From a virus, in the IMG/VR virus record IMGVR_UViG_3300032006_000058, positions 1-29,460 of that record: DNA of 29,460 bases. One strand, 5' to 3'. Position 1 is the stretch's first letter. The number at the start of each line of letters is the position of its first letter. This document shows, one piece after another, positions 3,941 to 29,460 of the stretch. The notes under the pieces were generated by a model, which ran no database searches, was not told the DNA's origin, and was given only the letters and a program-made list of their open reading frames with translations. Made by a program: the position numbers and the translations under genes.

Positions 3941-3950
3941 GAGCAACTAA

Positions 3951-6900
3951 ATGGCATTAACAAAAGTATCAGCAGCGATGTTCAGTACAGCCGCACAGAC
4001 TTCAGATTTAAATCTGGACGATGGTACGCTGTTTATTGACTCGTCTGAAAATAAAGTAGCAATCGGAAATACAGCTCCTGCAGAAGCATTAGATATTACA
4101 GGAAATTTAACTCTGCGCTCAAGAGGATATGTAAAATTACAAGACGCCTCTGGAGGTCAGTTTGTTGCTTTAAGAGCACCTGCTACAGTAAGTAGTAGTG
4201 TTACTTGGAGCTTACCCGCTGCTGATGGTTCAAGTGGTCAATCTCTAGTCACCGATGGCTCCGGAGCACTAACTTGGCAGACAAATTATTTATCTGTATC
4301 TGCTGGAACTGGAGTAACGGTTTCAAGTAATACAATTTCAATCGGACAAGCAGTAGCTACGAGTGATTCTCCGACTTTTACAAACTTAACACTTTCTGGA
4401 AATCTTACAGTAAATGGATCTACAGTAACTAATTCAGCTACGAATACCACTATTGAAGACCTACTTATAGAGCTAGGGACAGGAACAAGTGGAAGCCCTT
4501 CAAGTGACGCAGGTATAGTAATCGAAAGAGGTTCTTCGGATAATGTATTTATGGGCTGGGACGAGAGTGCTGATGTAATTGTACTTGGCACAGGTTCCTT
4601 TACTGGAGCAAGCTCTGGAAATCTGACTATTACTCCTGCAACATTACATATAGGAAGTATTGGTATAGGCAACGCATCTCCGGATGTATCATTAGATATT
4701 GGAAGTAAAACAGACGCTATACACCTTCCCGTTGGTACAACAGCACAAAGGCCGGGATCTCCTGCAGCAGGATATTTTCGTTATAATAGCACATTAAGTA
4801 AGTTTGAGGGCTATACTACTGCATGGGGAGAAATCGGTGGAGGAGGTTCTAATAGTATAGTAACCGATACCTTTACAGGAAACGGGTCTACTGTTGATTT
4901 TACACTTTCATCCGCAATGTCAAGTGTAAATAACTTGATAGTATTCGTAGATGGAGTTTACCAAAATCCTGAGGCTTACTCTCTTCCAGCATCTACAACA
5001 CTTAGATTTAGTGCGGCTCCTGCAAATAGTCGTAAAATAGTAGCATATGGAATAACAGGCGTTGTAACTGGCTCAAACTTAAATATTGATAGCTTTACGG
5101 GCGATGGATCTGATCTAACTTTTACACTCAGTATTACTCCAGTAAATGAAAACAACACATTAGTATATGTTGGTGGTGTTTATCAGCAAAAATCAGTATA
5201 TAGTGTTAGTGGTACTACTTTAACTTTTGGAAGTGGAAATGCTCCGCCAAACGGAGCAAGCATTGAAGTAGCTACTTTTAATCAAACAGATATAAATGTT
5301 CCAGTAGATAATACAATTACTACTGTGAAGATAGTAAATGATGCAGTAACCGCAGATAAGATAGTAGATAACATAGCACTGCCAGGTAATATAACTACTA
5401 CTGGCACATTAACTCCTACAGGAGTTTTAACCGCAAACGCGGGTGTAGTGGTAGATAACATTACAATAGATGGAACGGAGATTGATCTTTCTTCTGGTGA
5501 CTTAATAATAGACGTTGCGGGAGATATTACTCTTGATGCTGGCGGTGCCGAGATTAACTTTAAAGATGACACGGTACTATTTGGTCAGTTTCAAAAGTTT
5601 TCAGATAATTTTAATATTAAGTCTACCATCTCGGATGGAGATTTAGTTTTTCAAGGAAATGATGGTGGTTCTACTATCAATGCTCTCATTCTTGATATGT
5701 CAGACGAAGGAAAGGCTACTTTTAATAGCGGTATAGTTTCTACAGGAGCACTAATTAGAGCTGCCGCTAGCGGTGCTACTGCAGATGCCGGTGCTGACGA
5801 CCTAGTTGTTGAAAACTCTAGCAATGCTGGTATATCCATACTATCAGGAGCAAGCTCTAGTGGGGCTATTTATTTCGGAGATAGTGGTTCTGCTTATGAT
5901 GGCTATATACAATACGATCAAACAAATAGAAAATTTAATTTTATAACTGCTACAAGCGGTGGAATAAGCATTGACTCCTCTGGTAACCTTCTTCCTACAG
6001 TAAATAACACCATGTCTTTAGGTTCTTCAGGTGCTCGCTACTATCAAGTATGGGCAGGTACAAATATGATTTCTCCTACATACATAGCAACAGGAAATGT
6101 CGCTACAGGAGGATACCAGTTAACAAATACAGGTGGAGACGGAAAACCTGCTCTTACTTCTGACGCAAATAATTGGACAATTATACGTCCGGTAGCTTCT
6201 GGTGCAGATGTTGCTATAAATAACTTTGCAAATACAGCAAATCTATTTACAATTACAGATGAAGGAAACGTAGGATTAAATGAAAATACTCCTACTTCTT
6301 ACTATTCTAAAACTTTTCAAATAAATGGTAGTGGAAATACTTCAGCGATTAAGATGACAAATACCTCGACGGGAAATGCAAATAATCGAGGACATGATAT
6401 TGGTTCAGATGTAGCGGACCTTAGACTTGTAAATAGAGAAGCAAATGGTCATATTCAGCTCTATACTACCGCAGTACAGGATACGACTATACTTGCACTT
6501 GATGCAATGGAAGACGGACAAGTACGAATGCCTAAAAATGCAACATTTGAAGCTTCTGGTTCTGGAGGTTGGACAAGTGATTTATCAACTCAGTGGCACG
6601 GACTTATTGATACAGAAAGACACGATGCTAACGGAGATTTTGATAACACAAACGGAAGATTTACAGCTCCTCATGATGGGTATTACATACTTACAATGAG
6701 TGTTTATGCTAACAAAAACACAACCACTGCATCAGGTGGTTATATGCATCCAGCAATATGGATAAATGGTGCGTATAGTTGGATGGGAGGAAGCAGTCCT
6801 TATACAATATTTGGAAGTGCAGCCTCAAATCATTCCGTTGCGGGCTATCCAGATGGAGTTACAATTACTCGAACAATCTATATGGCATCTGGAGACTATG

Positions 6901-6983
6901 CAGAAGCTAAACTATACGTTAACGGTACTTTCAGAATTTATCAAAATTACAACTACTTCGCCGGTGGTTACCTAGGAGGATAA
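3951..6983 (+). CDS. Large tail fibre protein with C1q-like C-terminal domain
   Basis: 1010 residues, the largest gene here, with ATG after TTAGGAG. Visible layout: an N-terminal VAIGNTAPAEALDITG repeat and an LPAADGSSGQ linker, then a segment ending in LPVGTTAQRPGSPAAGYFRY. Next come two tandem repeats of about 65 residues at residues 305-368 and 380-444, each with FTG(N/D)GS...FTLS...VYVGGVYQ-type strands. A DNAVTADKIVDN-like joint follows, then the shared GDLxIDVAGDI module (residues 516-593), and finally a C1q-like jelly-roll from about residue 865 (NGRFTAPHDGYYILTMSVY). By family knowledge C1q-like folds are trimeric and bind ligands, so the C-terminus is the likely receptor-binding tip. 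The small HCNEK gene follows directly. Confidence 0.85.
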   Translation: MALTKVSAAMFSTAAQTSDLNLDDGTLFIDSSENKVAIGNTAPAEALDITGNLTLRSRGYVKLQDASGGQFVALRAPATVSSSVTWSLPAADGSSGQSLVTDGSGALTWQTNYLSVSAGTGVTVSSNTISIGQAVATSDSPTFTNLTLSGNLTVNGSTVTNSATNTTIEDLLIELGTGTSGSPSSDAGIVIERGSSDNVFMGWDESADVIVLGTGSFTGASSGNLTITPATLHIGSIGIGNASPDVSLDIGSKTDAIHLPVGTTAQRPGSPAAGYFRYNSTLSKFEGYTTAWGEIGGGGSNSIVTDTFTGNGSTVDFTLSSAMSSVNNLIVFVDGVYQNPEAYSLPASTTLRFSAAPANSRKIVAYGITGVVTGSNLNIDSFTGDGSDLTFTLSITPVNENNTLVYVGGVYQQKSVYSVSGTTLTFGSGNAPPNGASIEVATFNQTDINVPVDNTITTVKIVNDAVTADKIVDNIALPGNITTTGTLTPTGVLTANAGVVVDNITIDGTEIDLSSGDLIIDVAGDITLDAGGAEINFKDDTVLFGQFQKFSDNFNIKSTISDGDLVFQGNDGGSTINALILDMSDEGKATFNSGIVSTGALIRAAASGATADAGADDLVVENSSNAGISILSGASSSGAIYFGDSGSAYDGYIQYDQTNRKFNFITATSGGISIDSSGNLLPTVNNTMSLGSSGARYYQVWAGTNMISPTYIATGNVATGGYQLTNTGGDGKPALTSDANNWTIIRPVASGADVAINNFANTANLFTITDEGNVGLNENTPTSYYSKTFQINGSGNTSAIKMTNTSTGNANNRGHDIGSDVADLRLVNREANGHIQLYTTAVQDTTILALDAMEDGQVRMPKNATFEASGSGGWTSDLSTQWHGLIDTERHDANGDFDNTNGRFTAPHDGYYILTMSVYANKNTTTASGGYMHPAIWINGAYSWMGGSSPYTIFGSAASNHSVAGYPDGVTITRTIYMASGDYAEAKLYVNGTFRIYQNYNYFAGGYLGG
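5496..5729 (+). repeat. Shared fibre module, copy 1 (in the 1010-residue fibre)
   Basis: Encodes residues 516-593. Pattern: GDLIIDVAGDITLDAGG, then INFKDDTVLFGQ, GNDGGSTINALILDMS and ATFNS. The same order of blocks occurs at 7381-7611 and 9084-9317. In this fibre it lies mid-protein, whereas in the other two it starts at residue 43. Confidence 0.75.
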
Positions 6984-6984
6984 A

Positions 6985-7245
6985 ATGGCAAATTATACAA
7001 TAACATTAACAGACGCACAAGTCAAAGCACTAGAAACAGTGATAATTGATATAGAAGACTGGATAGAACATCAAGGCAAATCTCGTGCTTTAAAAGCTCA
7101 AAAACAGATTTCACAGCTTTTACTTACTCATTGTAATGAAAAAAATATAGCAATGGCACAAGGGCTTGATGCACAAGTAGACCAAGCATATACTTTAGGT
7201 TTAGTGAAAAAAGCAAGCTCAGAAGCGCCTCCCCGCCCGGACTAG
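6985..7245 (+). CDS. HCNEK small protein A, paralogue of the gene at 12478; candidate fibre accessory protein
   Basis: 86 residues, with ATG preceded by CTAGGAGGAT, one base after the fibre stop. The N-terminus MANYTITLTDAQVKALE resembles short helical proteins of unknown function seen in marine phages. Residues 42-77 match residues 43-78 of the protein at 12478-12762 (20 of 36 identical by hand alignment), including HCNEK, a following IA.A.G and QAY. The protein looks mostly helical and soluble. It lies immediately after a C1q-tipped fibre and before a fibre gene, which fits a fibre-specific assembly factor or a structural adaptor. No biochemical function can be read from the sequence. Confidence 0.7.
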   Translation: MANYTITLTDAQVKALETVIIDIEDWIEHQGKSRALKAQKQISQLLLTHCNEKNIAMAQGLDAQVDQAYTLGLVKKASSEAPPRPD

Positions 7246-7254
7246 GAGTAAATA

Positions 7255-8958
7255 ATGGCACTAACAACCATACCATCAGAATTATCATCAGTATCAGGAA
7301 TCGCAGATTCTTCTGACGCTACAGCTATAACTATTGATTCTAGCGAGAACGTTACTTTTGCCGGTAATATCCTTAAAACAGGCGATTTAACTGTCGATGT
7401 GAGTGGAGATATAACTCTTGATGCTGACGGTGGAGATATAAACTTTAAAGACGGAGGCACCTTATTTGGTCAGATTTCAAATTCGTCTGGGCTTTATTTA
7501 GTTTCTAATGTCTCTGATGCAGATATATTTATTCGTGGAAATGATGGTGGCAGCTATGTTAACGCTCTCACTTTTGATATGTCAGCAGCAGGAGCGGCAG
7601 CGTTTAATAGTTATATAACTTCTACAGCAGTTTATGGTAAAGATGATGGGAATACTGGTATCCAGTTTGATGGATCTGACGTTATCACTTTACATACTGG
7701 TGGTGCGGAGAGGATGCGTTTTGATAGTGCTGGAAAAGTAGGAATAGGCGTCGATCCTGACACTTTACTTCATGTTAAACACGCTGGTGGTAGCTTTGAT
7801 GAGGTAGCAAGACTTACAGCTGTAGCAAACTCCGCTAATGATGGGGCCTTCTTAGGGTTTCATGGAAACTCAACTAGTAAATTTTATGGATTTATTGGTG
7901 GCTATGATATTGATACAAATAAAGGTGGTGTAAAAATTGGCGTTGGTAATGGTGAAACTGCTATTGCTGATTCGATGACCAAAATGACGATTGATAATAC
8001 TGGGAAAGTAGGAATAGGAACAACTCCAAGTGGAGCCACATTGCATGTTGTAAGTGCTGGAACTGGGGTAAAAGGAAGATTTAGTGACGGATCGTCAGAG
8101 ACTCTTGATATTGGTATCGATCTAGCAACTAACAATAACCATGCTTATATCGATCAGCCAAACTCAGGAATGATCCAGTTTAGAAGAGGTGGATCGCCTA
8201 AAGGACAATTAACTGCGGCGGATGACTGGGTTTTTGGAGGAGACTCCTATAATGGTGGGTATACAAATGGTTATCCAGCAACAAATATTTCTACAAGCTA
8301 TCGTTATTATTTTTTCTCCTCTGCAAACATGGATGCAAGATTCAATGCTCAAGGCAGCAATGGTGCCTATTTAGGACTATTTGGTGGTGCTACTCGTTTA
8401 AATAATGATGTAGGATACATGGTATTTGGTTCAAATACAAATGGTAACGGAGGCTCTTGGAGTGCTTACTTTAAGCATGTAGTTGGTAGTAATGCCGCCG
8501 TAGGACAATTAAGCGCGTATACTTGTGATGGTTCTTCTTGGTATGAAGTTTGGAGAGCACAATATACTGGAACTAATAAATTCTTAACTCATAATGGAGC
8601 AGTTGGAAATATCTCGTCTGACCAACGACTAAAAAAGAATATAAAAGATTTCTCTTATTCATTGGATGTTTTCAAAACTCTAAAGCCTAGAAACTTTGAA
8701 TGGATAAATACAGATCAACACGAAGAGGGTGTTCAGCAGGGATTTATAGCGCAAGAACTCCCTGATGATTTAAAGTTTGAGAATCCATTAGAAGAGAAAG
8801 TTATGTCTGGTAATACTGGACAAAAAATAGATAATCCAGACTTAGAACTGATTCCAGACAAAGGTGCGCTATCAAGTGCTTTAGGATCACAAGATGCTAT
8901 GTACGTTTCAGTTATTCAACAACTAATAGCAAGAATAGAAGCATTGGAGGCTAAATAA
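7255..8958 (+). CDS. Tail fibre protein with peptidase S74 domain
   Basis: 567 residues, ATG after CTAGGAGT. The first 45 residues contain GIADSSDATAITID, shared with the last fibre (12766). The GDLxVDVSGDI module follows at residues 43-119, shared with two other fibres. The shaft has two repeats of the type (A)ERMRFDSAGKVGIG...LLHV and MTIDNTGKVGIGTTPSGATLHV. The S74 domain starts at Ser455 in SDQRLK (Lys460), with QQGFIAQELP and a final helix QQLIARIEALEAK. It should fold as a trimer, with self-cleavage before Ser455 releasing about 113 residues. The stop overlaps the next ATG by one base (TAATG). Confidence 0.85.
   Translation: MALTTIPSELSSVSGIADSSDATAITIDSSENVTFAGNILKTGDLTVDVSGDITLDADGGDINFKDGGTLFGQISNSSGLYLVSNVSDADIFIRGNDGGSYVNALTFDMSAAGAAAFNSYITSTAVYGKDDGNTGIQFDGSDVITLHTGGAERMRFDSAGKVGIGVDPDTLLHVKHAGGSFDEVARLTAVANSANDGAFLGFHGNSTSKFYGFIGGYDIDTNKGGVKIGVGNGETAIADSMTKMTIDNTGKVGIGTTPSGATLHVVSAGTGVKGRFSDGSSETLDIGIDLATNNNHAYIDQPNSGMIQFRRGGSPKGQLTAADDWVFGGDSYNGGYTNGYPATNISTSYRYYFFSSANMDARFNAQGSNGAYLGLFGGATRLNNDVGYMVFGSNTNGNGGSWSAYFKHVVGSNAAVGQLSAYTCDGSSWYEVWRAQYTGTNKFLTHNGAVGNISSDQRLKKNIKDFSYSLDVFKTLKPRNFEWINTDQHEEGVQQGFIAQELPDDLKFENPLEEKVMSGNTGQKIDNPDLELIPDKGALSSALGSQDAMYVSVIQQLIARIEALEAK
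7297..7365 (+). repeat. Conserved N-terminal coding block GIADSSDATAITID, copy 1
   Basis: 69 bases that match 12805-12873 at 62 positions by hand count, with a central run of 24 identical bases. The copy begins at residue 15 of the 567-residue fibre. The flanking bases diverge immediately, so this is a short shared block rather than a duplication of the whole gene. Confidence 0.8.
7381..7611 (+). repeat. Shared fibre module, copy 2 (in the 567-residue fibre)
   Basis: Encodes residues 43-119: GDLTVDVSGDITLDADGG, INFKDGGTLFGQ, GNDGGSYVNALTFDMS and AAFNS. It is alignable end to end with the copies at 5496 and 9084. Confidence 0.75.
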
Positions 8959-10406
8959 TGGCGAATACAAAAGTAAAAGCAGAACAACTAGAAGCCGCAC
9001 AGACTAATATTACTAGTTTGGGAACGCTTACAGCTCTGACTGTAGATGATATTACTATTGATGGCTCTACTATATCAGATGGAGGTGATTTGACGATTGA
9101 TGTCGCTGGCGATATTATTCTTGATGCTGACGGTGGAGATATTATTCTTAGAGATGGAGGCACTAACTTTGCACATCTATCTAATTCTAGTAATAATCTT
9201 CTTATTCGATCTGCAATAAATAATGCTGATATAGTTTTTCGAGGTTATGATGGTGGCTCAGAAATTACATCCCTTACTCTTGATATGTCAGATGCCGGAG
9301 CAGCTACTTTTAATAGCACAGTCACAGCAGTAAAGTTAGTCAGCACGAACGGTGTTATAGAGCTAGATGACAATGGCTCACATAACGGTGTTATTAATGT
9401 ACCCGCTTCTTTGTTTATCAATATAGATAGCGACGGAAATAGCGCTGGTGAAGATTTTATTATCGGCAAAGACCGTACTGCAACATCTGGTGGAACGGAG
9501 CTTTTTAGAATTGATGAAGGTGGAAATGTAGGCATAGGCACTTCCGATCCAAAAAGAATGCTTCAAGTGGGAGACAATACTCAAGCAATTGCAGCTCTTT
9601 CTCTTCAAACTACTACTTCTGGACTTTCTAGAATATACATGGGAGACAATGATGGAACTTCTGCTGAATATACAGGAATGATTTCATACGCTCATTCTGA
9701 TGACTCTATGCAATTTTTTACTAGTAGCACAGAAAGAATGCGTATTCATTCAGATGGTAAGGTTGATGTAAAAAACTCTGGCACGGATAAAGTAGCGAGA
9801 TTTATAAACACAGGAAGCGGTACTCAAGGCATTACAGTAGGAACTACCACTGCAGATAATGCCGGAAAAGGTATACACCTATCCCACGATAACTCTAGTA
9901 CAGCTTATGTACATGCGTATAATTATGCAGGCGCAAGTTTTGATAACTTAGAACTTAGAGGAAACACTGTATCTACAGTAGGAGGAACTGGGCATAACGT
10001 ATTTAGAGCTTGTGCTAATGGTCTTTTCTCAATCGGATCTGCAACTTACACACAAGGAAGAATTAGGCAATATGTTTATACTGCTTCAATTAGTAATGGC
10101 GTTGAAGTTGATCTTTTCTACAATGGAGGCGCTTATGATGATCTTCATTTACTTATAACGGTAGAGGCTACTCATTCAGGTAGAACCTATAGAACAAGAG
10201 TAGGTCCTTTTGGATATTATCAATCTTTACCTACTCTAAGTGCAGGAGTAGGTTTGGATTTTACTCAAGAAACGGTTAACACAGGCAGAAGAAGAATAAA
10301 ATTTAATAATACTAGCGGCTATACTGCTGCTACTTATATTTCTGCACTAATTTTTGGTGATAATAGTGTAGTTGTTGAGAACGGTGCAATTTCAGACCTA
10401 CTTTAA
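8958..10406 (+). CDS. Tail fibre protein with an unrecognised C-terminal tip
   Basis: 482 residues, with TTGGAGG a few bases before the ATG. The N-terminus has one AAQTNITSLGTLTALTV repeat, then the GDLTIDVAGDI module (residues 43-120), then GNVGIGTSDPKRMLQV and STERMRIHSDGKVDV shaft repeats. The last roughly 120 residues (from about SIGSATYTQGRIRQYVYT) are neither S74 nor C1q by eye. They are rich in beta strands (VEVDLFYNGGAYDDLHLLI, TYRTRVGPFGYY). No SDxRxK or GRFTAP motif is present. It is a likely receptor-binding fibre with a different tip. A small gene with a YPxMEEQLDMLYWD motif follows. Confidence 0.8.
   Translation: MANTKVKAEQLEAAQTNITSLGTLTALTVDDITIDGSTISDGGDLTIDVAGDIILDADGGDIILRDGGTNFAHLSNSSNNLLIRSAINNADIVFRGYDGGSEITSLTLDMSDAGAATFNSTVTAVKLVSTNGVIELDDNGSHNGVINVPASLFINIDSDGNSAGEDFIIGKDRTATSGGTELFRIDEGGNVGIGTSDPKRMLQVGDNTQAIAALSLQTTTSGLSRIYMGDNDGTSAEYTGMISYAHSDDSMQFFTSSTERMRIHSDGKVDVKNSGTDKVARFINTGSGTQGITVGTTTADNAGKGIHLSHDNSSTAYVHAYNYAGASFDNLELRGNTVSTVGGTGHNVFRACANGLFSIGSATYTQGRIRQYVYTASISNGVEVDLFYNGGAYDDLHLLITVEATHSGRTYRTRVGPFGYYQSLPTLSAGVGLDFTQETVNTGRRRIKFNNTSGYTAATYISALIFGDNSVVVENGAISDLL
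9084..9317 (+). repeat. Shared fibre module, copy 3 (in the 482-residue fibre)
   Basis: Encodes residues 43-120: GDLTIDVAGDIILDADGG, ILRDGGTNFAH, YDGGSEITSLTLDMS and ATFNS. It begins at the same residue number as copy 2, which points to domain shuffling near the N-terminus. Confidence 0.75.
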
Positions 10407-10417
10407 AGGAGAATAAA

Positions 10418-10771
10418 ATGGTACAAGAATGGGTAAATGGAAAACTAGTTGATCTTGATGTAAGTGCACAGCCTAAAAAAGCAGAATATGTAGCTGCTAA
10501 GCACCCAAAAGATGATGACAGAGAACTTATAGATGTTGAAACAGGAAAACCTTTTAATAGTAGGGAAAGATTTAGTCATTTTGATTTTTTAGTTAATATG
10601 CATGTTGTTAATAGAGAGTATCCTCCTATGGAGGAACAACTTGATATGCTTTATTGGGATAAAGTAAATGGTACTGAAAATTGGAAAGCTGCGATTGATA
10701 AAGTAAAAGCAGACAATCCAAAGAGTGATACAAGCGATATGTCCAAATTAAAAGACGAATTTGGACTATAA
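10418..10771 (+). CDS. Small tail-associated protein with YPxMEEQLDML motif (XkdW/YorD-like tail protein)
   Basis: 117 residues, ATG after AAAGGAG. The segment YPPMEEQLDMLYWDKVNG followed by W-K-A-x-I-D-K-V-K-A-D-N-P-K matches a motif that recurs in small phage tail or fibre-associated proteins (YPxIxDQLDxLWH...IKxVKDxYPK), related to the XkdW/YorD group. I recall this as a common annotation but cannot check it here. The N-terminus (VQEWVNGKLVDLDVS) is a short beta segment and the end is charged and helical. It lies directly after the fibre with the unusual tip. A role in fibre attachment or assembly is inferred. Confidence 0.6.
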   Translation: MVQEWVNGKLVDLDVSAQPKKAEYVAAKHPKDDDRELIDVETGKPFNSRERFSHFDFLVNMHVVNREYPPMEEQLDMLYWDKVNGTENWKAAIDKVKADNPKSDTSDMSKLKDEFGL

Positions 10772-10794
10772 AAAGACAGTGTAGGAGAAGTTAA

Positions 10795-12468
10795 ATGGCA
10801 AATACAAAAATCACAACAAATGTTATAGCAGATGACGCAGTTACCAGCGATAAACTTGGTGGTGATTTGACTATGCCTGGCCATGTGTCTCTTGCAGATA
10901 ACAAAGAACTCAGAATTGGAACAGGAAACGACTTAGTAATAAAACATGATGCAACTGATACAATTTTTACCAATACTACTGGAAATTTAGTACTAGCAGG
11001 AAGCCATGTATATATTGCGAATGCGGCAAATAATGAATATATGGGCTTGTTTATTGCAGATGGAGCAGCAAGCTTAAGATTTAATAATATAGAAGAACTC
11101 GCAACCGTTAGTGGTGGAGTTTATATTCCGAATAAGATTGGGATTGGTGTTAATGCTCCAACAAGCCCTTTACATATAGCTAGTGCAACAAATAGAACAT
11201 TATTACTGGACTATACTGCAGGTTCTGGTGGTTATACTTGGGCTTCTTTTAAACAAAGCGGAACAGAAAAATTTAGAATTTTTGGTGATTATACTGCTGG
11301 TTATTTATCCTTTTATAATGAAACACAAAGTGCGCATCAATTAACACTGGAGTCTAGTGGGAAAGTTGGAATTGGTACTTCAAGTCCTGCTTCAGCATTG
11401 CATATTTTAGAAAGTCATACAACTAATGTTACTACGTACGGTGAATTAGTTTCCGGCACTAGTCTTACTATAAATGGAAATAGTTCAGAAGGTTCAGATG
11501 TTTTAAGAGTAGGAGCTATGGCAAACGGCACTGGCGATTACTTTATAGATGTATCAAATTCCAGCGGCTCATCCGACTATAACTTATTACTAAATCCTTT
11601 TGGTGGAGGAATTTATAAAGGGACAACTGCAACTAGAACGATGTCGGGCGTTGCACCAGAATTTTTTATTGAAGGCACTGACTATGATAGTGCTTCTATA
11701 GGTATAGTAATAAACGCAAATGGAGCGATTGATTGTCCTGCTCTATTTTTTGGTAAGTCGAGAGGAACATCAGACGGTTCAAATACTGTTGTTCAAAATG
11801 GTGACCGAGTATTCAGTATGCGTATGGATGGGTCAGATGGCACTAATCTAGAACAAGTCGCTATTATAGAAGCACACGTTGATGGAACTGTTGCAAATAA
11901 TAGTATACCAGGTCGAATGACCTTTATGACAACCAACACTGGAAGTCAGTATGCAACAGAAAAAATGCGTATTGATAATATGGGTCGTGTTACTATGCCT
12001 TCACAACCTGCAGCAATTTATCATTATACTAATTCTAATCAAGATGGCGCATATGGATATTCTTGGCCAGGAACAGGTGCTCAGTCTGTTATCTGTAAAC
12101 CACAAGGTGCAACTCTTAATCGAGGCAGTATATATAATGCTAGTACAGGAGCCTTTACTGCTCCTGTAGCAGGAGTATATCGTTATGCTGTACATGGAAA
12201 TCTTTACACTAATAATCTGAACGCTAGCGCATATTACACAATACGAATATATAAAAATACATCACATTATGTTTATCATTATGAAAGTAATAGTATTAAT
12301 AATGCAAATGGGTGGGTTTATGTTAATATGGGCGGAATTATCAGCATGGCAGCAAGTGATTACCTTAGATTTGAATTAAAAACAAATAATTTAAGTACCT
12401 CTGGAGTTAATGGCTTTGGATTCGACTTAAGTCAATATACTCACTTTGAGTTTCAATTGCTTTATTAG
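10795..12468 (+). CDS. Tail fibre protein with C1q-like C-terminal domain
   Basis: 557 residues, ATG after TAGGAGAAG. The N-terminus is MANTKITTNVIADDAVTSDKLGGDLTM, an IADDAVTxDKL joint seen in other fibres. A GNDLVIKHDATDT...GNLVLAGS segment follows, the DLxIxHD-type module common in marine phage fibres. The shaft repeats are NKIGIGVNAPTSPLHIASA and GKVGIGTSSPASALHILES. The end, from about residue 405, is C1q-like: ASTGAFTAPVAGVYRYAVHG, then RIYKN, and finally FEFQLLY. The expected role is a trimeric receptor-binding fibre. Its C1q tip is more diverged from the other two than they are from each other. The second HCNEK gene follows. Confidence 0.83.
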   Translation: MANTKITTNVIADDAVTSDKLGGDLTMPGHVSLADNKELRIGTGNDLVIKHDATDTIFTNTTGNLVLAGSHVYIANAANNEYMGLFIADGAASLRFNNIEELATVSGGVYIPNKIGIGVNAPTSPLHIASATNRTLLLDYTAGSGGYTWASFKQSGTEKFRIFGDYTAGYLSFYNETQSAHQLTLESSGKVGIGTSSPASALHILESHTTNVTTYGELVSGTSLTINGNSSEGSDVLRVGAMANGTGDYFIDVSNSSGSSDYNLLLNPFGGGIYKGTTATRTMSGVAPEFFIEGTDYDSASIGIVINANGAIDCPALFFGKSRGTSDGSNTVVQNGDRVFSMRMDGSDGTNLEQVAIIEAHVDGTVANNSIPGRMTFMTTNTGSQYATEKMRIDNMGRVTMPSQPAAIYHYTNSNQDGAYGYSWPGTGAQSVICKPQGATLNRGSIYNASTGAFTAPVAGVYRYAVHGNLYTNNLNASAYYTIRIYKNTSHYVYHYESNSINNANGWVYVNMGGIISMAASDYLRFELKTNNLSTSGVNGFGFDLSQYTHFEFQLLY

Positions 12469-12477
12469 GAGAAAAAA

Positions 12478-12762
12478 ATGGCAAAAACAATTACAATAGA
12501 AATAACAGATTCGGAATATCGCTGTTTGGAATATATAACGGAGAATCCAAGTGATTTTGTAGACAATGCTACTACTTTTCGAGCAAGAGCAGCAAAAGAT
12601 GAAATACTTCCGTTACTAATAGCTCACTGTAACGAAAAAAGTATTGCTTTAGCAACAGGAGAAGCCGCTCAAATAGAACAAGCTTATAGTCTTAAAGTTA
12701 TAAAAACTGCGAAAGAACGAGATGCAGAGGCGGAAGCAGACCTAGCCAAGAAAGAGGAGTAA
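12478..12762 (+). CDS. HCNEK small protein B, paralogue of the gene at 6985
   Basis: 94 residues, ATG after TTAGGAG. It starts MAKTITIEITDSEYRCLEYI and carries HCNEKSIALATGEAAQIEQAY, matching the paralogue upstream most strongly over residues 43-78. The N-terminal halves are more diverged but share the pattern of a short beta strand then a helix. The tail is highly charged (RDAEAEADLAKKEE). Like its paralogue it follows a C1q-tipped fibre and precedes a fibre beginning with the GIADSSDATAITID block, so its role is probably tied to those genes. Function unknown. Confidence 0.7.
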   Translation: MAKTITIEITDSEYRCLEYITENPSDFVDNATTFRARAAKDEILPLLIAHCNEKSIALATGEAAQIEQAYSLKVIKTAKERDAEAEADLAKKEE

Positions 12763-12765
12763 TTA

Positions 12766-14547
12766 ATGGCATTAACTAAAATACCAAGAGGTTTATTAGA
12801 CACCGGAATTGCAGATTCTTCGGACGCTACAGCTATAACTATTGATGCTAACGAGAATGTTACTTTTGGTGGTACTATAAATGTTACCGGAGATGGAGAC
12901 GATATAATTGTTAGTTCAGCCGATCATGAGTTAGTTTTGATAGGTAATAGAGGCTCAAGCGGAGCTAACTTAGACAAAGCTTACATTCGTATGAAGTCTG
13001 AAAGCACGAATACTGTTGTCATTGATACAGCAGGTGTTTCTTATTTTAATGGCGGCAATGTTGGTATCGGTACTACAAGTCCCGGTACTTTATTACATTT
13101 GTATAACTCTAGTAATGCTCAAATGACTTTTCAAAATTCTACGACAGGAACAACTGTAGGCTCAGATGGATATGATATTACTCTTCAAGGCAGCGATATT
13201 TATCATATTCTCAGAGATAGCGGTAATCAACGTTTTTATACTGCGGGAACAGAAAGAATGCGTATTGATTCTGCTGGAGACGTAGCAGTAGGTTCAGTTA
13301 CAACTTTATTAAGATTGCAAAGCGTTAATAGCGGTACAGGAAGTTTACCAACTGATGGAACAGTAGGAATTACAGCGGCAAATGCAAACATTCCTTTTGG
13401 TGTTCATAACGAATCTAACTCAGCAACTTACTCAGGTATTGCGTTTGAAACTAGAACTTCTGGAGCTTCAAGATGGTTAATTGCTAATGAGTGGAAATCC
13501 CAATATTTAGGTGATTTAGTTTTTTCTAGAAGAACAGGTGGAACTTCTAGTGCTGAAGCTATGCGTATTGACAGTAGCGGCAATGTTAGTATAGGCGATA
13601 GCACTGCTGATAGATTGTTTCATGTAAAAAGATCAGACTCTGGTGGTACAGTTGCAAAATTTGAAAATAGTGCTGGAACAGTATATATCGAACTAAATAC
13701 AGCTAATCAAGCTGGGGGCGATGCAGGATATCTGTCCTATGACTCTAGTAAAAACTTAGGCCTTTGGACGGATGATACACAGCAAGTTACAATTAAAAGC
13801 AACGGACATGTTGGTATAAATAGTGACAATCCATACACTAGATTCGAAGTTGTAGGTACTTCAACAGCAGCATATTCTGCGACTGGTTTTAATGCCTATT
13901 CTCAAATTGGTTTAAAACAGCCCGACAATAACGGAGGATATACAGGAATTAGATTTACAAATACTGGAGGTAACTACGAAGGATTTATTGGGTTTACTCA
14001 AACAACTGCTTCGCCCAGTACAAAAGCAGATTTTGTTGTTCAAGGGTATAATAGAGATTCAACAGCGTATCAAGAAAAATTTAGAATTACTGACGGAGGA
14101 GAAATTTCAACTCCTCAAAATCCTGTATTTATGTGTACCGGAACAGGCGGTTGGACTGCCATTTCAGGTGATAATATAATAAATACAAGTGTGTTTTCAG
14201 TAGATTATGATCGAGGAGGCAATTTTACTGCGTCAAATGGAAGGTTTACTGCTCCTGTAACAGGGTTTTATCTATTTGTTTTTCATACCTATACAAGAGC
14301 AAATAATACTAGCGGATATGTTTATCCTAAATTTTATGTAAATGGCAGTGGATATGCTGATGGCTCTAATACTATGATACAACACTATCAAGGACATGGA
14401 GACGAAGACAAAGGCACCTGTAACACTGCACACATATATCTTACTGCGAATCAGTATGTTCAAGTGGGGCATAGTGCTCATGGAAATAGTAATCCAATAT
14501 CATATCACGGAGCTTCACTAGGATTTTCCGGACACCTAATAGGGTAA
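12766..14547 (+). CDS. Tail fibre protein with C1q-like C-terminal domain, last gene of the fibre operon
   Basis: 593 residues, ATG after AGAGGAG, three bases after the upstream stop. The N-terminus MALTKIPRGLLDT leads into GIADSSDATAITID. Shaft repeats are GNVGIGTTSPGTLLHL, TERMRIDSAGDVAVG, AMRIDSSGNVSIGDSTADRLFHV and GHVGINSDNPYTRFEVVG. From about residue 445 the C-terminus is C1q-like, with a GTGGWT lead-in and NGRFTAPVTGFYLFVFHTY. This lead-in and core resemble the tip of the 1010-residue fibre (GSGGWT, NGRFTAPHDGYY). It has no downstream small partner. Transcription should stop at the hairpin four bases after its TAA. Confidence 0.83.
   Translation: MALTKIPRGLLDTGIADSSDATAITIDANENVTFGGTINVTGDGDDIIVSSADHELVLIGNRGSSGANLDKAYIRMKSESTNTVVIDTAGVSYFNGGNVGIGTTSPGTLLHLYNSSNAQMTFQNSTTGTTVGSDGYDITLQGSDIYHILRDSGNQRFYTAGTERMRIDSAGDVAVGSVTTLLRLQSVNSGTGSLPTDGTVGITAANANIPFGVHNESNSATYSGIAFETRTSGASRWLIANEWKSQYLGDLVFSRRTGGTSSAEAMRIDSSGNVSIGDSTADRLFHVKRSDSGGTVAKFENSAGTVYIELNTANQAGGDAGYLSYDSSKNLGLWTDDTQQVTIKSNGHVGINSDNPYTRFEVVGTSTAAYSATGFNAYSQIGLKQPDNNGGYTGIRFTNTGGNYEGFIGFTQTTASPSTKADFVVQGYNRDSTAYQEKFRITDGGEISTPQNPVFMCTGTGGWTAISGDNIINTSVFSVDYDRGGNFTASNGRFTAPVTGFYLFVFHTYTRANNTSGYVYPKFYVNGSGYADGSNTMIQHYQGHGDEDKGTCNTAHIYLTANQYVQVGHSAHGNSNPISYHGASLGFSGHLIG
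12805..12873 (+). repeat. Conserved N-terminal coding block GIADSSDATAITID, copy 2
   Basis: Partner of the block at 7297-7365. It begins at residue 14 of the 593-residue fibre, and both copies sit just downstream of an HCNEK gene. Confidence 0.8.
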
Positions 14548-23369: not shown

Positions 23370-24650
23370 TTATATGTTTTTGATTTCATATCCCTGCTTC
23401 ATGTAGTATCCCTTGCGGTTATTGGCTTGTTTTCTAGCAGTATTCCCTTTAAGGTTTATATCCACAATTATGGGATCTTTCTTACCTTCTTTTATTCTTA
23501 TCACACGTCCTATTAACTGCGTTAGTAAAGGATCGTTATTTACAGGCGTACCCAGTACAAGGCAACTTAGTGCATCTAACGACACGCCCTCTGAAAATAT
23601 TGACTGTGTGCCAAACAATACATTCTTATCTTTATTGATCTGTTCCATCATAGCAGGTCTTTCTTCGTGAGGTGTTTCCCCAGTTATCACAATAGCAGTA
23701 GGTCCCACTAAATTGGCACACTTTTTTAAGAACTCTACTCTATCTCCTACTACTAGAACTTTATGACCTTTTGCAGCATAGCTTGCAGCTATGATTGCTA
23801 CTTCATGTTGATACTCTTCATTGTAAGCAAGATGGTTTATCTTCTTAGCCCAGGGAGTACCACCTCCGTCTAGAAATCGTATCTCTGAATGTACGATATT
23901 TATTTTAGGCGGCATATAATTTTCTTTAGGTGGAGAGTAAACTGTAGGGCTAAAGTAATCCCTAAATACGACATGCTTTCCATCTTTTCTCTCAATTGTT
24001 CCTGACAGTCCAATTTTGTACCGTGCACGACACTTATCGACAATTTTCCTAAACGTCGGAGACGATACATGGTGCATCTCATCAAGTATGATTGTCCCGA
24101 ATTCATTAGCTATGTCGGGTACTCGCCTTGTGAGTGTTTGTACATTACCTATGACGATTGGACCTGTTAGGTCGAACTTTCCACTACCTATTATGGCAGG
24201 TTTAAATCCAAATACTTTTTCTACTTCACGTTCCCACTGACTTCTTAGTGCTACAGTATGAACAATTACTAATGTTTTCTGTTTTAGTTTAGCGGCAATG
24301 GCTAAACCTGTAAATGTCTTACCCCAACTGACCCAAGCGTTGATTATACAGTTGTCTTCGATTGCGTCGTAGACTTCTTTTTGACTCGCACGTAACTCGT
24401 AGCGAAAATCTGGGAAGTCCATCGGCGCAAGCGTTCTTTTATCCGATATTTCATACTCCTCAGGTATCAAATCGAATCGACCAGATGGAACTGTTATCAT
24501 ACCTTGCTTAACTATGCCCATATTTTTAATAATCGTAGGCGGATCAAGAGGATTATACGACGGTATAGAGTATGTCAACTCTTTATCTATAATCCCTTGA
24601 GTGGCAGGGTCTATGTTCATGTAAATTTTATCAGATACTACTGCTTTCAC
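23370..24650 (-). CDS. SF2 DNA helicase, UvsW-like
   Basis: 426 residues, GTG start just after the upstream stop. Motifs: RASQKEVYDAI (Q90), motif I WVSWGKTF (106-113), motif II DEMH (190-193), motif III SGT (216-218), motif V region FSEGVSLDA and motif VI QLIGRVIR (378-385). The first roughly 80 residues resemble an N-terminal substrate domain like that in UvsW and related phage helicases. Motif I has VSWGKT where GxGKT is usual, though Lys and Thr are kept. Likely role: unwinding or remodelling branched DNA, controlling R-loops and recombination-dependent replication. No DnaB-type replicative helicase is visible in the window. The P2 promoter lies immediately downstream of the stop. Confidence 0.9.
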   Translation of the reverse strand: MKAVVSDKIYMNIDPATQGIIDKELTYSIPSYNPLDPPTIIKNMGIVKQGMITVPSGRFDLIPEEYEISDKRTLAPMDFPDFRYELRASQKEVYDAIEDNCIINAWVSWGKTFTGLAIAAKLKQKTLVIVHTVALRSQWEREVEKVFGFKPAIIGSGKFDLTGPIVIGNVQTLTRRVPDIANEFGTIILDEMHHVSSPTFRKIVDKCRARYKIGLSGTIERKDGKHVVFRDYFSPTVYSPPKENYMPPKINIVHSEIRFLDGGGTPWAKKINHLAYNEEYQHEVAIIAASYAAKGHKVLVVGDRVEFLKKCANLVGPTAIVITGETPHEERPAMMEQINKDKNVLFGTQSIFSEGVSLDALSCLVLGTPVNNDPLLTQLIGRVIRIKEGKKDPIIVDINLKGNTARKQANNRKGYYMKQGYEIKNI

Positions 24651-24652
24651 AA

Positions 24653-25225
24653 CTATCTCGTAATCCTTTGTTCATATCTAGCTTCCGTTTCTATCCACCA
24701 AGGTGGTTTTTCACGTCCCTTCCAAGAAGCAAAGGTAGCTTTATCTGCATGATAAAATCTACGGTAAGCTGCTATTGCGTCTTGACCTTTAAGCTCGTCT
24801 GGCATAGCCTGAGCAAAAGGAGTGAGTCCATCTCTTGGTAAGCATAGTGGATCTGGGAGTTTGAGTATGACACTATGCACTGATTTGTGGCTTTTTCCAT
24901 ATCGGTATCCGTACTCGCTATTGAGAGCCAGCGCATAGCAATATAGCCATTCATAATTATCCAAGCTAGTACGACCCCAGATAGTACAAGGGTGGTTATA
25001 CATAGTTGGAAGGTAGGGAAAGTCTCGTTCTTCATTTTTCTTTGCTTCCTTTAACACAGCCCACTCTTCTGATGTGAGCTTTCTTGGAATATACCCTAAA
25101 TACTTATCCACCCAATGATTAGTACACAGCATTTGTGCGGCTTCTAGGGGCATCTTTACAATGTGCTTATCTACATGATACTCTGCACATTTATCAATGT
25201 CTGTATCTAAAACAAATATATTCAT
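24653..25225 (-). CDS. Conserved phage protein with HxDKHxxK motif, function uncertain
   Basis: 190 residues, in an ATGA overlap with the upstream gene. MNIFVLDTDIDKCAEYHVDK, then HIVKMPLEAAQMLCT, YNHPCTIWGR, NYEWLYCYALALNSEYGYRYGK, TPFAQAMP, AAYRRFYHADK and PPWW form a conserved pattern seen in many aquatic phages. Some database entries of this type carry a pyrimidine-dimer-glycosylase label, but I cannot verify that and see no T4 endonuclease V motif. Conserved His, Asp, Lys and Cys at the start suggest a metal or catalytic site. Its position between polymerase and helicase suggests DNA or nucleotide metabolism. Confidence 0.6.
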   Translation of the reverse strand: MNIFVLDTDIDKCAEYHVDKHIVKMPLEAAQMLCTNHWVDKYLGYIPRKLTSEEWAVLKEAKKNEERDFPYLPTMYNHPCTIWGRTSLDNYEWLYCYALALNSEYGYRYGKSHKSVHSVILKLPDPLCLPRDGLTPFAQAMPDELKGQDAIAAYRRFYHADKATFASWKGREKPPWWIETEARYEQRITR

Positions 25226-25704: not shown

Positions 25705-25793
25705 GCTATCAGTATATTACTTACTATGAAGCAACAAGTTATAACGCCAACAATTTCTATAAACCATTTCCATCTAGACTCCCATTTGTCCAT
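25695..25793 (-). CDS. Possible 32-residue single-helix membrane peptide
   Basis: A short ORF in the gap between the DNA polymerase and the 160-residue gene. It starts at an ATG inside the polymerase's last codons (+1 frame) and ends at TAG within the next gene. It reads MDKWESRWKWFIEIVGVITC, then CFIVSNILIAWF: a short charged and Trp-rich N-terminus and one hydrophobic helix of about 22 residues. No good ribosome binding site is seen upstream. In its favour, it fills an otherwise unusually long gap, is cleanly membrane-like, and its stop overlaps a gene that also lacks a ribosome site. It could be chance. Confidence 0.4.
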   Translation of the reverse strand: MDKWESRWKWFIEIVGVITCCFIVSNILIAWF

Positions 25794-28056
25794 AGGTTTT
25801 GTCGTATTTTCCAAAGCTATAATCCTCTCCCACATCGAAGTCACATCCGACAGGGGCTCCTTCTATCACACAACCTTCGCGGGGTTTCTGAACGAAGTAT
25901 TTTAGTTTTTCACAATAATAGTCTACCTCATGCTCAGGCACTTCTGCAAGTATCGAGTCGTGAACAAGAGCAAAAATTCGACTTTTTAAGTTATGTTCTT
26001 TGATATGTCTATTCATATCTATTGCACCCAATAAATTTATATCGGATGCTGTTGACTGCACGAGGAAGTTAATACCACTTCGTACTTCGTGGGAGGCGAC
26101 TCCCTTGTCACTGCTAAACACATTAGGAAGCCTACGCTTACGCCCAAAGATAGAATAAATATATCCTTTCTGTTGAATTTCATTCTTCATATTCTCCAAC
26201 CAGTACTTTAGCTTTGAGAATTCTCCAAAGTAATCATCGATCACTTCTTGTGCTTCGTTTAGACTAAAGTACGTTCCTGAGTCTTTTGTGACTTGTTGAG
26301 ATATTTTGTGCGGGCCTGCACCGTACATAATTCCGAATGTAACAGCTTTAGCCGCCTGTCGTTTAACAGAGTAATACTCTGCTACTTCTTCTACTTCACA
26401 CGGTAAGTGAAATACTGTCTTAGCGATAGTACTATGAAAGTTGCCTCCCTGTCGAAATACATTCTGTAGCTTTTTATCTTTAGCAAGTATTGCAGCTACG
26501 TATACCTCGGCAGTGGTTAAGTCCATTGCGACTATCTGATGGCCTTCCTTAGCCTTGATACATCCCTTGACAATAGGATTGTCACGAGGAATCTGTTGCA
26601 TATTTAGTTTGCCGGAACTGCTAAGGCGACCAGAAGTAGTACCGTGAAGATTAAAATTGGTACGGAGATGGCTGTCCCTGTCCAACTGTGGAATGATTTT
26701 ATCAAGGTACGTGTTCTTAATCTTGCTCTTCTGCCTAATGTCGAGAATGAGTGTCGGAACCTCATGTTGTTCTCCTAGTTCTTGTAGGACTTCTGCATCT
26801 GTTGAGTGGGCTCCTGTCCCAGTCTTCTTACCTGTAGGCTTGAGTCCTATAAAGTCAAACAGTAACTTACGCAGTTGAAGAGTACTGTTTGGGTTAAAGT
26901 CTTTGCCCTGAAATTCCTGAAAATTTCTTACTTCTTGATGTTTCTCTAGCTTCTCGATGGCTAATTGAATATCTTTTTCCATCAAGTTTTGAGAAATCTC
27001 TAGTCGTTTTCTGTCAAACGGGACACCCGTATCCTGCACATCTTTAAGAAAGTTCATGGCAGGAATAAGTAGATTTTTGTAGACTCTACGGATCTGTGGG
27101 TCTTTGTTTAGCTCTGCTTCAAAGACCTGATATATTCTGTATGTAACACACGCATCCATAGCGGCATAGACTTGTATAAGGTCAAAGGGAATCATATCCC
27201 AAGTAAAGTCACCTTTGAGAAAACCGTTCCTACGACAGTAATCGTCTATAAAGTCATACATCGGTTTCTCATAGTCTCCGTATGGAGTATGCTTGATAGC
27301 CAAACCTTTAAGGCCGTGATTGCCTGGTACTTCGTTAAGCATATAAGACATAAGCATAGTATCGTCTATATTAGGAAACTCGAAATTGAAATGATACTCA
27401 AGCATAGCCAAGTCAAACTTGGCATTGTGCATGATAACACCTTTTTCTCGAAACATAGATTGCATCTCATCAACTATCTCTTCGTCAATACAATCAGTAC
27501 TAATATATACGGCAGTCTCATCTTCCACAGCCATACTAATACCTAGTATATAACCGTCACGAGGATAAAGACCTGTAGTCTCTGTATCTACAGCAACCTT
27601 AGGACTGTTACTTGCTCTCGCTGCTTTTACCCATGCAAGAGCTTCTGCAGTATCTGTAATACCATAGAACTTAGACTCATCAATCTTCACGCTTTTGAGT
27701 TCTCCAGAGATGTACTTCTTGAGCTTACTCAAGGCATCATCCCACGTCTCACGTGCTTCTGGTTTGAACGCAAGCATGCCTGGATTGATAACAGGAATAT
27801 ACTTGTCTTCAATCAAACGACCACAATGTTCTGTGATAGAACGTTCTCGTGTAAAGTGTTGTAGTGCTTCCGATCCAACAAGTATAATAAATTCATAATC
27901 ATCTATGTCAATATCTATATCGACATCTCTCTTCAATATCTTCTTCTTTGTTTTGTCTGAACACAGCGAAAACCTATCAAACTGAAAGTCATTGTCGAAG
28001 TGACGAATGAAATCAGTTTTACTAGGTACTTTCTCTACTAGTGCTACATTAGCCAT
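25774..28056 (-). CDS. polA: Family A DNA polymerase with UDG-like N-terminal domain and 3'-5' exonuclease
   Basis: 760 residues, with AAAGGAA before the ATG. Layout: residues 1-118 resemble the uracil-DNA-glycosylase fold (FIILVGSEAL at 56-65, GRLIEDKYIPVINPG at 79-93). The proofreading exonuclease has Asp157/Glu159 (DTETTG), Asn211/Asp215 (HNAKFD) and Asp301 (YAAMD). The polymerase core has motif A MDLTTAEVYV (Asp512, Glu517), motif B RQAAKAVTFGIMYG (Arg566, Lys570, Phe574, Tyr578) and motif C VHDS (His699, Asp700). It is the replicative polymerase. Phe at the 762-equivalent (Phe574) is usually linked with lytic phages. Motif A lacks the common SQIExR. The gene overlaps the primase by 8 bases. 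Confidence 0.95.
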   Translation of the reverse strand: MANVALVEKVPSKTDFIRHFDNDFQFDRFSLCSDKTKKKILKRDVDIDIDIDDYEFIILVGSEALQHFTRERSITEHCGRLIEDKYIPVINPGMLAFKPEARETWDDALSKLKKYISGELKSVKIDESKFYGITDTAEALAWVKAARASNSPKVAVDTETTGLYPRDGYILGISMAVEDETAVYISTDCIDEEIVDEMQSMFREKGVIMHNAKFDLAMLEYHFNFEFPNIDDTMLMSYMLNEVPGNHGLKGLAIKHTPYGDYEKPMYDFIDDYCRRNGFLKGDFTWDMIPFDLIQVYAAMDACVTYRIYQVFEAELNKDPQIRRVYKNLLIPAMNFLKDVQDTGVPFDRKRLEISQNLMEKDIQLAIEKLEKHQEVRNFQEFQGKDFNPNSTLQLRKLLFDFIGLKPTGKKTGTGAHSTDAEVLQELGEQHEVPTLILDIRQKSKIKNTYLDKIIPQLDRDSHLRTNFNLHGTTSGRLSSSGKLNMQQIPRDNPIVKGCIKAKEGHQIVAMDLTTAEVYVAAILAKDKKLQNVFRQGGNFHSTIAKTVFHLPCEVEEVAEYYSVKRQAAKAVTFGIMYGAGPHKISQQVTKDSGTYFSLNEAQEVIDDYFGEFSKLKYWLENMKNEIQQKGYIYSIFGRKRRLPNVFSSDKGVASHEVRSGINFLVQSTASDINLLGAIDMNRHIKEHNLKSRIFALVHDSILAEVPEHEVDYYCEKLKYFVQKPREGCVIEGAPVGCDFDVGEDYSFGKYDKTYGQMGV

Positions 28057-28885
28057 ATAAAAATTCCTTTAAGTCATTTACTCTTTCTGGAGTTAAGTCT
28101 CCAGGATCTGTTCCTTTTGCGATAGGAATAACATCCGACTGCAGTCCTCCTTCGTTACATAAGTCTGTAACTTTTTCCGCAGCTTGTTCGCCTGCTATAT
28201 CTCCATCAAAAAATATGTGTATTCCTTTTACTCCTAGTATCTTTAATAATGATATCTTATAAATATCCATGTTGTTTGTACCAAAGCAGCAAACGGCATT
28301 TGTGATTCCCTTGTCAATAAGGTTAAGAGCATCAAAAATACCTTCTACTAATACTATTGTTCCTTCTTTTATATCTGGCACAGAAGGAAACAGTGGCATC
28401 TTACTGCCGCGAGGGTGAATCATGTACTTAGGTTCAATAGTTGTATCCATTGCACGACCTAGAAATACTCTCACCTTTCCAGTTATGTCTCGTATAGGAA
28501 ACACTAAACGACCTGCATACTCTTTCTCAAAATGAGTAAACGCCTCGAATTGGGCCAATGTATCAGCACTGATACCACGAAAGGCTCCTACATATCGTGT
28601 AGAGGCTTCTGGTATTCGTAAGCCTACATTCTCAGATCGTATGGCTTGTACTTTAGATTTTACTTTATGCAACCGAACTTCCTTAGCACTTGGAGCTGCC
28701 CCGAAGTGAGAAAATATATTACCTTTAAATCCACAACTAAAACAATGCATGACTCCCGTAACCTTATCTACTCGAAGAGAAGGATTACGATCGTCATGGT
28801 CAGGGTTTAAGCACTTAATCTGAAAGTCTTGTCCAGATAAAGTGTAAACTAACTTTTGCTTATTTAGAAGTTCTATTACATCCAT
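28049..28885 (-). CDS. DNA primase with CHC2-type zinc finger and TOPRIM domain
   Basis: 278 residues. The zinc site is C25-x4-H30 ... C48-x2-C51 (KCLNPDHDDRNPSL, HCFSCGFKGN). The TOPRIM fold shows Glu181 in VLVEGIFDAL and Asp227/Asp229 in FFDGDIAGEQAA. It makes RNA primers for the neighbouring polymerase. It ends soon after TOPRIM with no RecA-like helicase, unlike T7 gp4, so primase and helicase are separate in this phage. The ATG coincides with the predicted +1 of promoter P1 and has no ribosome binding site, so its mRNA may be leaderless. Overlap with the polymerase gene implies coupled translation. Confidence 0.92.
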   Translation of the reverse strand: MDVIELLNKQKLVYTLSGQDFQIKCLNPDHDDRNPSLRVDKVTGVMHCFSCGFKGNIFSHFGAAPSAKEVRLHKVKSKVQAIRSENVGLRIPEASTRYVGAFRGISADTLAQFEAFTHFEKEYAGRLVFPIRDITGKVRVFLGRAMDTTIEPKYMIHPRGSKMPLFPSVPDIKEGTIVLVEGIFDALNLIDKGITNAVCCFGTNNMDIYKISLLKILGVKGIHIFFDGDIAGEQAAEKVTDLCNEGGLQSDVIPIAKGTDPGDLTPERVNDLKEFLYG

Positions 28886-28920: not shown

Positions 28921-29138
28921 GATTTAATTTCATGTTGATACTCATCCAGTTCAGTAACTTGTGCACGCTTTCTTGTTCTGCCGTTAGAATAAGTAGTTGT
29001 TATTCCTACTACTCTACTTCCTCCGTCGTCTGTATAGTCTCTTGCCCATCTATGTGCCAAATTACTATACGGAGTATGTCCGTGATATCGGGTCGTTATT
29101 CCATCTGCAGTTACTATTTCCATTAAGTATGTTTTCAT
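28917..29138 (-). CDS. Small protein of unknown function
   Basis: 73 residues from the ATG at 29138. A longer reading from 29156 is possible, but the 29138 ATG has an ideal AAGGA six bases upstream and forms a TAATG junction with the preceding gene. MKTYLMEIVTADGITTRYHG looks like a small beta strand pair. SNLAHRWARDYTDDGGSRVVGITTTY and a basic GRTRKRAQ stretch follow. No known domain is recognised. The basic patch would suit nucleic acid binding, but this is speculation. Confidence 0.6.
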   Translation of the reverse strand: MKTYLMEIVTADGITTRYHGHTPYSNLAHRWARDYTDDGGSRVVGITTTYSNGRTRKRAQVTELDEYQHEIKS

Positions 29139-29460
29139 TACTTTTCCTTCGTCCAAATAGTCAAAGAATATTTATTTCCAGACTCTAAGGGGCTGCATCT
29201 ATGTGGATGCGTTAGTTTTCCGGGCCAGCATATCAGAGTACCGACAGGAACATTTTTATTATCCCATTCTTGTCTAGGAAACTCTAGACTTGCTCCTCTA
29301 TATAAATTATTTAATTTTACACTTGCACTGATATAACTATCATCATGGTGCAAAGATAAAGAACGTTGTCCTTCCATGCTGTACTTTACTGCGAACAGAG
29401 CATCAATTTCAAACTCATCACATCTCCAGTAATCGGACAAAGTCGGTCCTATCTCTTCAA
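29138..29460 (-). CDS. 2-oxoglutarate/Fe(II)-dependent oxygenase, prolyl/lysyl-hydroxylase-like (5' end outside window)
   Basis: Only the C-terminal part is present. The frame stays open to the window edge, so the TTG at 29440 is not the real start. FAVKYSMEGQRSLSLHHDDS carries the HxD iron ligands (His-His-Asp), followed by the beta strands SYISASVKLN. GTLICWPGKLTHPHRC then carries the distal His ligand. GNKYSLTIW ends the fold with Lys where Arg usually binds 2-oxoglutarate. The pattern fits the procollagen-hydroxylase-like group of oxygenases common in marine phages. Substrate unknown; protein or nucleic-acid hydroxylation are both possible. It is upstream of and coupled to the 73-residue gene. 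Confidence 0.83.
   Translation of the reverse strand, partial: EEIGPTLSDYWRCDEFEIDALFAVKYSMEGQRSLSLHHDDSYISASVKLNNLYRGASLEFPRQEWDNKNVPVGTLICWPGKLTHPHRCSPLESGNKYSLTIWTKEK

Follow-up and report, generated by a model that had tools for sequence, protein, structure and literature searches.

A predicted uracil-DNA-glycosylase fold, apparently catalytically dead, at the N terminus of a T5-type phage DNA polymerase

Uracil-DNA glycosylases (UDGs) fall into several families: family-4 UDGs carry an iron-sulphur cluster on four cysteines, family-2 MUG enzymes carry NPS at motif 3, and vaccinia D4 belongs to family 1. That a UDG can serve replication apart from its catalysis is already known, as two studies describe D4 as binding A20 and as having a catalysis-independent role in replication (PMC1936997, PMC3946371). 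D4 differs from the domain described here in being a separate protein, still an active glycosylase, that acts through A20. Among phages, SPO1 gp31 and the PolA of vB_EalM-132, PMBT14, Serbin and ctfzr933 have a UDG-fold module directly before the exonuclease and polymerase domains, the same arrangement as in the polymerase analysed here, and the PaBG polymerase is counted with them (PMC7412058). A further family-A polymerase, from phage phiLo (9qhs, 1142 residues), has a solved structure, for which a literature search found no paper. In the literature covered, to which most subscription papers did not belong, no statement of a UDG fold in T5-type polymerases was found.

The window, the whole stretch of DNA analysed, is a small marine phage contig of 29,460 nucleotides (IMGVR_UViG_3300032006_000058, positions 1–29,460). 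An ORF on its minus strand (25774–28056) encodes a family-A DNA polymerase of 760 aa, with a 3'-5' exonuclease domain at residues 133–316 (27109–27660, minus; Pfam PF01612, E = 1.8e-23) and a family-A polymerase domain at residues 377–724 (25885–26928, minus; Pfam PF00476, E = 1.6e-79). Pfam assigned no family before residue 133 of the 760-aa polymerase; a match to PHROG 17 (DNA polymerase) reaches over residues 32–119 (E = 1.6e-5). An AAGGA lies 8 nt ahead of the ATG, which overlaps by 8 bp the end of the TOPRIM primase gene directly upstream (28049–28885, minus; ORF and domain matches), so the polymerase N terminus is well placed, and the start is shared among relatives, with at most four in-frame codons between the prior stop and the matched start in 58 of 79 loci. 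The window and T5 have one gene order in common, namely primase, polymerase, ~160-aa protein, D10-type helicase (23370–24650, minus, in the window; domain matches), SbcD and SbcC, and the window therefore carries a T5-like replication module, whose gene set also includes an SSB-like gene.

The N-terminal domain (residues 1–120; 27697–28056, minus) is shared with other phages. It is 80–92% identical in seven close IMG/VR relatives, at least 580 of 600 further candidate IMG/VR stretches among the matches listed carry it, and a query with the domain only matched 386 of 50,697 phage records at E ≤ 1. Among named phages, the closest full-length matches listed come from T5-like polymerases of Vibrio and Aeromonas phages, to which the entire protein is ~42% identical. 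Phage T5 polymerase (pol, AAS77168, L015) and other Demerecviridae polymerases open with the same domain, in the same place and with the same neighbours, although in T5 the loop leading to the third strand is longer and SPA stands where the window has NPG. A tree of the polymerase domain (25 rows) united all 11 T5-type rows in one clade (support 100/98). Judged from these sequence comparisons, the domain is an N terminus common to T5-type polymerases, a step beyond the first-pass annotation, which was made from the window alone, and provides, as far as the literature covered shows, the first testable identity for the N-terminal region of the classic, highly processive T5 polymerase. In Proteus phage PM135 (L008:3995-7729) the polymerase annotation is split in two by an intervening endonuclease gene.

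That first-pass annotation had proposed a UDG-like fold for the region, and comparison of a predicted structure of residues 1–120 with the UDG families bears this out. The AF2 model built on a 51-sequence alignment (pLDDT 94.0, pTM 0.88), the only one used, as a single-sequence run reached a pLDDT of 43.1, has the four-stranded alpha/beta/alpha fold of the UDGs. In VIA-align, applied as a second look at Foldseek's list, family-4 UDGs occupied the top ranks (1ui1, Z = 12.9, rmsd 2.5, 120 residues; 4zbx, Z = 12.7), followed by UdgX (Z about 11), the phiLo polymerase 9qhs (Z = 9.5) and thymine-DNA glycosylase (Z = 8.4). The best structural matches, family-4 UDGs (1ui0/1ui1, 4zbx, TM0511) and UdgX, span Z = 10.1–12.9. 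All but one of rows 1–41 (n = 40) were UDG-superfamily entries or 9qhs, row 37 being a protein of S. mutans that is uncharacterised; clearly unrelated chains began with a sphingosine kinase (Z = 6.8). Foldseek alone returned no match at E ≤ 0.001 against the PDB, with flavoproteins in the top rows; against viral models it placed the T5-like Gostya9 polymerase first (E = 1.7e-10), followed by models of phage PolA and of UDGs, the best of them at E = 4e-5. By this model, residues 1–120 are predicted to form a UDG fold.

The late half of the domain also resembles UDGs in sequence to an above-chance degree. Residues 56–95 had been read as fitting the late part of the UDG superfamily, and residues 48–115 scored 33.0 when aligned to a profile built from 80 family-4 UDGs, for which 300 column-shuffled profiles reached at most 20.4. 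The three segments on which that fit was based, ILVGSEAL (58–65), SITEHCGR (73–80) and VINPG (89–93), are all present: the first lies within the third strand and subsequent helix (FIILVGSEAL, residues 56–65; 27862–27891, minus; AF2 and profile alignment), the second is, by the alignments, the counterpart of UDG SITKVRG (27817–27840, minus), and the third leads into NPGMLAFKPE (residues 91–100; 27757–27786, minus; alignments and column counts), the counterpart of the UDG HPAYLLRNP loop with Asn for His. A kinship with the SPO1 polymerase module, raised in the first pass, emerged as clear profile homology: residues 42–119 matched ten phage polymerase UDG-like domains, including the decayed members Goe26, BHU-17 and RcTiptonus (the last without a Pfam UDG hit), with an hhalign score of 67.2 (E = 1.2e-10), and none of 150 shuffles was as high (≤20.3). 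The 9qhs sequence in turn shows a weak match (E = 0.023) to the UDG domain of SPO1. The window domain stayed below the Pfam PF03167 gathering score (SPO1, as positive control, 83.1 bits), Pfam UDG matched 14 of 51 domain members weakly (best E = 0.0093), and a PDB-sequence profile search recovered TM0511 in the right register at E = 1.0, on par with unrelated chains. The N-terminal half alone gave no profile signal against family-4 UDGs.

Residues 4–16, VALVEKVPSKTDF (28009–28047, minus), contain the first strand and motif 1, as placed by the AF2 strand at residues 4–8, the structural range, a permissive hhalign and column counts. A register that set this strand on the second UDG strand (global hhalign) was rejected because the VIA-align match starts at 1ui1 residue 33, which pairs with the first aligned residue of the model, and the SPO1-type alignment concurs; the permissive hhalign sets VEKVPSKTDF opposite SPO1 VQENPFDYEY. 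Motif 1 reads EKVPS in the window domain, and a GxxPG-type motif with a catalytic Asp/Asn/Glu did not occur among 108 distinct T5-type sequences, which were drawn from 136 rows (79 of 80 loci of one search, L017 being left out as the contig of L006; 45 of 79 of another, contigs that were near-identical or already included being left out by eye; 11 further loci; and the window). The first-pass annotation had found no early GxAPG motif, which agrees with the missing sequence signal against family 4, but since strand and loop are kept in the predicted fold and in the hhalign pairing, the motif is degenerate and not absent.

The residues of catalysis are lost, as had been suspected. By alignment, K9 falls at the position of E52 of UdgX, a residue named in mutant entries, which we take to have the role of the family-4 catalytic Glu, and across the 108 sequences this position holds Lys (n = 42), Ser (32), Thr (27), Pro (3), Ala (2), Asn (1) and Arg (1), with Asp, Glu and Gln at zero. 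Position 10, where families 1 and 2 have their catalytic Asp/Asn, is Val in the window and Asn or Gln in six relatives (four and two), and Gly occurs at positions 8 and 12 in 0/108. The motif-3 His of HPx, position 91, is Asn in 97 sequences and Ser in 11, never His. N91 thus confirms the earlier reading of NPG in place of HPS, yet NPG alone is weak evidence of death because the MUG enzymes of family 2 also have NPS there; it is the combined losses that make glycosylase activity very unlikely, and we infer that it would be absent in the test tube. A still active glycosylase with unusual residues and a MUG-like NPx could appeal to the MUG motif and to the Asn or Gln in 6/108 relatives, but given the window's K9 and V10, the lone Asn at position 9, the universal loss of the motif-1 glycines and the shortened pocket segment described below, it is barely credible. 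The domain looks, from its sequence, catalytically dead.

The uracil pocket appears to have been reduced as well. Residues 27–47 (27916–27978, minus; AF2 and column counts) hold the second strand and a shortened segment, with a conserved KKxLKxDxDI, that replaces the family-4 N..KCRPP..NR region. Motif 1 and the third strand are separated by 46–56 residues in 107 of the 108 sequences (66 in the other), compared to 77–78 residues in 60 of the 61 family-4 UDGs, from the 80, in which the spacing was measured (one outlier, 148). About 27 residues are missing here from the T5-type domain, a feature beyond the first-pass reading, and the reduced distance means a shorter stretch in the place where family-4 enzymes have KCRPP and the pocket Phe. 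At the recognition-Asn position, as placed by MAFFT alignment, Cys (n = 83), Ser (12), Ala (7) and Thr (6) account for 108/108 sequences. The window domain has two cysteines (32 and 78) in place of the four iron-sulphur cysteines of family 4, and the stretch ahead of motif 1 is absent. Compared to family-4 UDGs and UdgX, then, the window lacks, or has in shortened form, the catalytic Glu, the pocket segment, the motif-3 His and the iron-sulphur cysteines.

In archaeal family-B polymerases an N-terminal pocket senses template uracil and stalls synthesis, and a comparable sensor of uracil or a modified base, binding the template and stalling the polymerase without cutting, has been considered here; uracil sensing was among the functions suggested in the first pass. 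Its basis would be the UDG fold, the thymidylate-synthase-type genes beside full-length UDG-polymerase fusions (7/8 annotated loci) and the modified template in the solved phiLo polymerase, from which base reading may be the ancestral role. This suggestion is weakened by the shortened pocket-Phe segment and by the replacement of the recognition Asn in every sequence, motif 1 is rewritten, and no thymidylate synthase was seen within the stretch covered at annotated T5-type loci. We regard a sensor as improbable. A processivity role, another of the first-pass suggestions, may still apply.

Despite these losses the domain is kept. All 68 testable loci found via the polymerase domain alone retain it; these come from the best-scoring 80 of 581 loci, and so are close relatives, 12 of the 80 having no upstream sequence. 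Mean pairwise identity across 55 non-redundant polymerases is 51% in the domain, compared to 53% in the exonuclease and 62% in the polymerase domain, and its pN/pS is 0.07–0.17 in 7/7 comparisons (exonuclease domain, 0.11–0.19), with dS near saturation. Conservation is highest on the old active-site face, made up of the loops that come after the strands (KKxLKxDxDI, NPAMLxFKPE), where 42 post-strand residues have an entropy of 1.21 versus 1.72 elsewhere, a difference equalled by 1 of 119 circular shifts, this set having been chosen with conservation already in view. By these measures the domain is under purifying selection and not debris. A vestigial passenger of the polymerase, without function, would be in keeping with the decay that this module shows elsewhere among phage polymerases, but the retention in 68/68, the low pN/pS and an identity close to that of the exonuclease domain render it highly improbable.

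Fold kinship, family membership, motif loss, retention and the conserved face were computed in this analysis, and the explanation we favour, with a probability of roughly 0.55, is a pseudo-glycosylase derived from a module of the SPO1 kind whose face was kept as a binding surface beside the exonuclease. Residues 1–120 would descend from the glycosylase module fused to SPO1-kind phage family-A polymerases, a module that in the T5-type clade would have been shortened and stripped of its catalytic and uracil-pocket residues, and would be kept under purifying selection because the former DNA-binding and active-site face still serves binding. Adjacent to the 3'-5' exonuclease domain, this face may grip DNA or pack on the exonuclease, and its binding could influence the division of the primer end between synthesis and editing. 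Most likely the domain serves the polymerase in binding or as a scaffold, a final step that we infer; a role towards DNA or the exonuclease in particular is proposed with low confidence, and is placed first partly because Andraos, Tabor and Richardson in 2004 reportedly found T5 polymerase lacking 30 N-terminal residues to retain about half of its polymerase and a fifth of its double-strand exonuclease activity.

The mean net charge of the domain (−2.1; window, −4) compared to the average of family-4 UDGs (+4.1) makes it mildly acidic. This counts against a straightforward grip on DNA and leaves room for a docking role, in which the former active-site face would bind another replication protein (primase, D10-like helicase or SSB) and not DNA. 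The conserved face, the fixed primase-polymerase-helicase neighbourhood in T5 and the window, and the A20-binding, catalysis-independent role of vaccinia D4 (PMC1936997, PMC3946371) are consistent with docking. Against it, T5 polymerase is known to work without accessory proteins. Docking is a possible but doubtful reading.

The pseudo-glycosylase reading places the T5-type domain in a wider set of phage polymerases in which the module appears to decay by grades, another aspect that the first reading did not include. Among those compared here, GEAPG, the KCRPP motif, HPA and the cysteines are all retained in the ctfzr933 polymerase (L258:2869-5283). In PMBT14, Serbin and Lebethron motif 1 is changed, but HPA and the cysteines remain; SPO1 and Exiguobacterium 132 lack the cysteines and still carry HP. 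At motif 3 the decayed forms read GP (Goe26), QS (BHU-17) and SP (RcTiptonus). The SPO1-type PolA aligned here have the full-length fold and most keep HP (Goe26 and BHU-17 do not), unlike the T5-type polymerases, in which the module is shortened. The occurrence of decayed forms in more than one tree clade suggests repeated loss of the glycosylase motifs, in a tree whose deep placement is unsure owing to the long branches of T7, N4-like 24-32N, Bowtie, Goe8 and VH2_2019; the last two are UDG-like by eye and have no Pfam match. A scan of viral contigs for relatives of the SPO1 domain found none. The observation of SPO1-like polymerases thereby becomes a series from an apparently intact to a fully decayed glycosylase, and raises the question of what use a replicative polymerase makes of a repair-enzyme fold after repair ceases, a question already put for vaccinia D4. 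More tentatively, and with the odds somewhat against it, the UDG module may be an old N-terminal component, common among phage family-A polymerases and repeatedly and independently turned from a glycosylase into a pseudo-enzyme, the 'unique N terminus' of T5 being its most reduced form and the old active-site face now controlling the switch between synthesis and editing.

Several further features were observed. The ctfzr933 polymerase, with its apparently intact family-4 UDG domain, is a possible active glycosylase-polymerase fusion. At the eight annotated loci of full-length UDG-PolA fusions (L255–L260, L262 and L014), the thymidylate-synthase-type neighbours are hinting at a tie with modified or uracil-derived DNA; the exception, L260, has no annotated thymidylate synthase and a dCMP deaminase, and L261 is without annotation. 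Within the window, a 190-aa PHROG 624 protein (24653–25225, minus) has a sub-threshold Pfam match to a pyrimidine-dimer glycosylase (21.0 bits, cut-off 23), and a 2OG-Fe(II) oxygenase-like ORF (29138–29458, minus) runs off the contig end. Positions 3–14547 (plus) hold a series of tail-fibre-like genes, several of which match the same families (PHROG 9942, 18345 and 15750), a pattern suggestive of multiplication inside the module.
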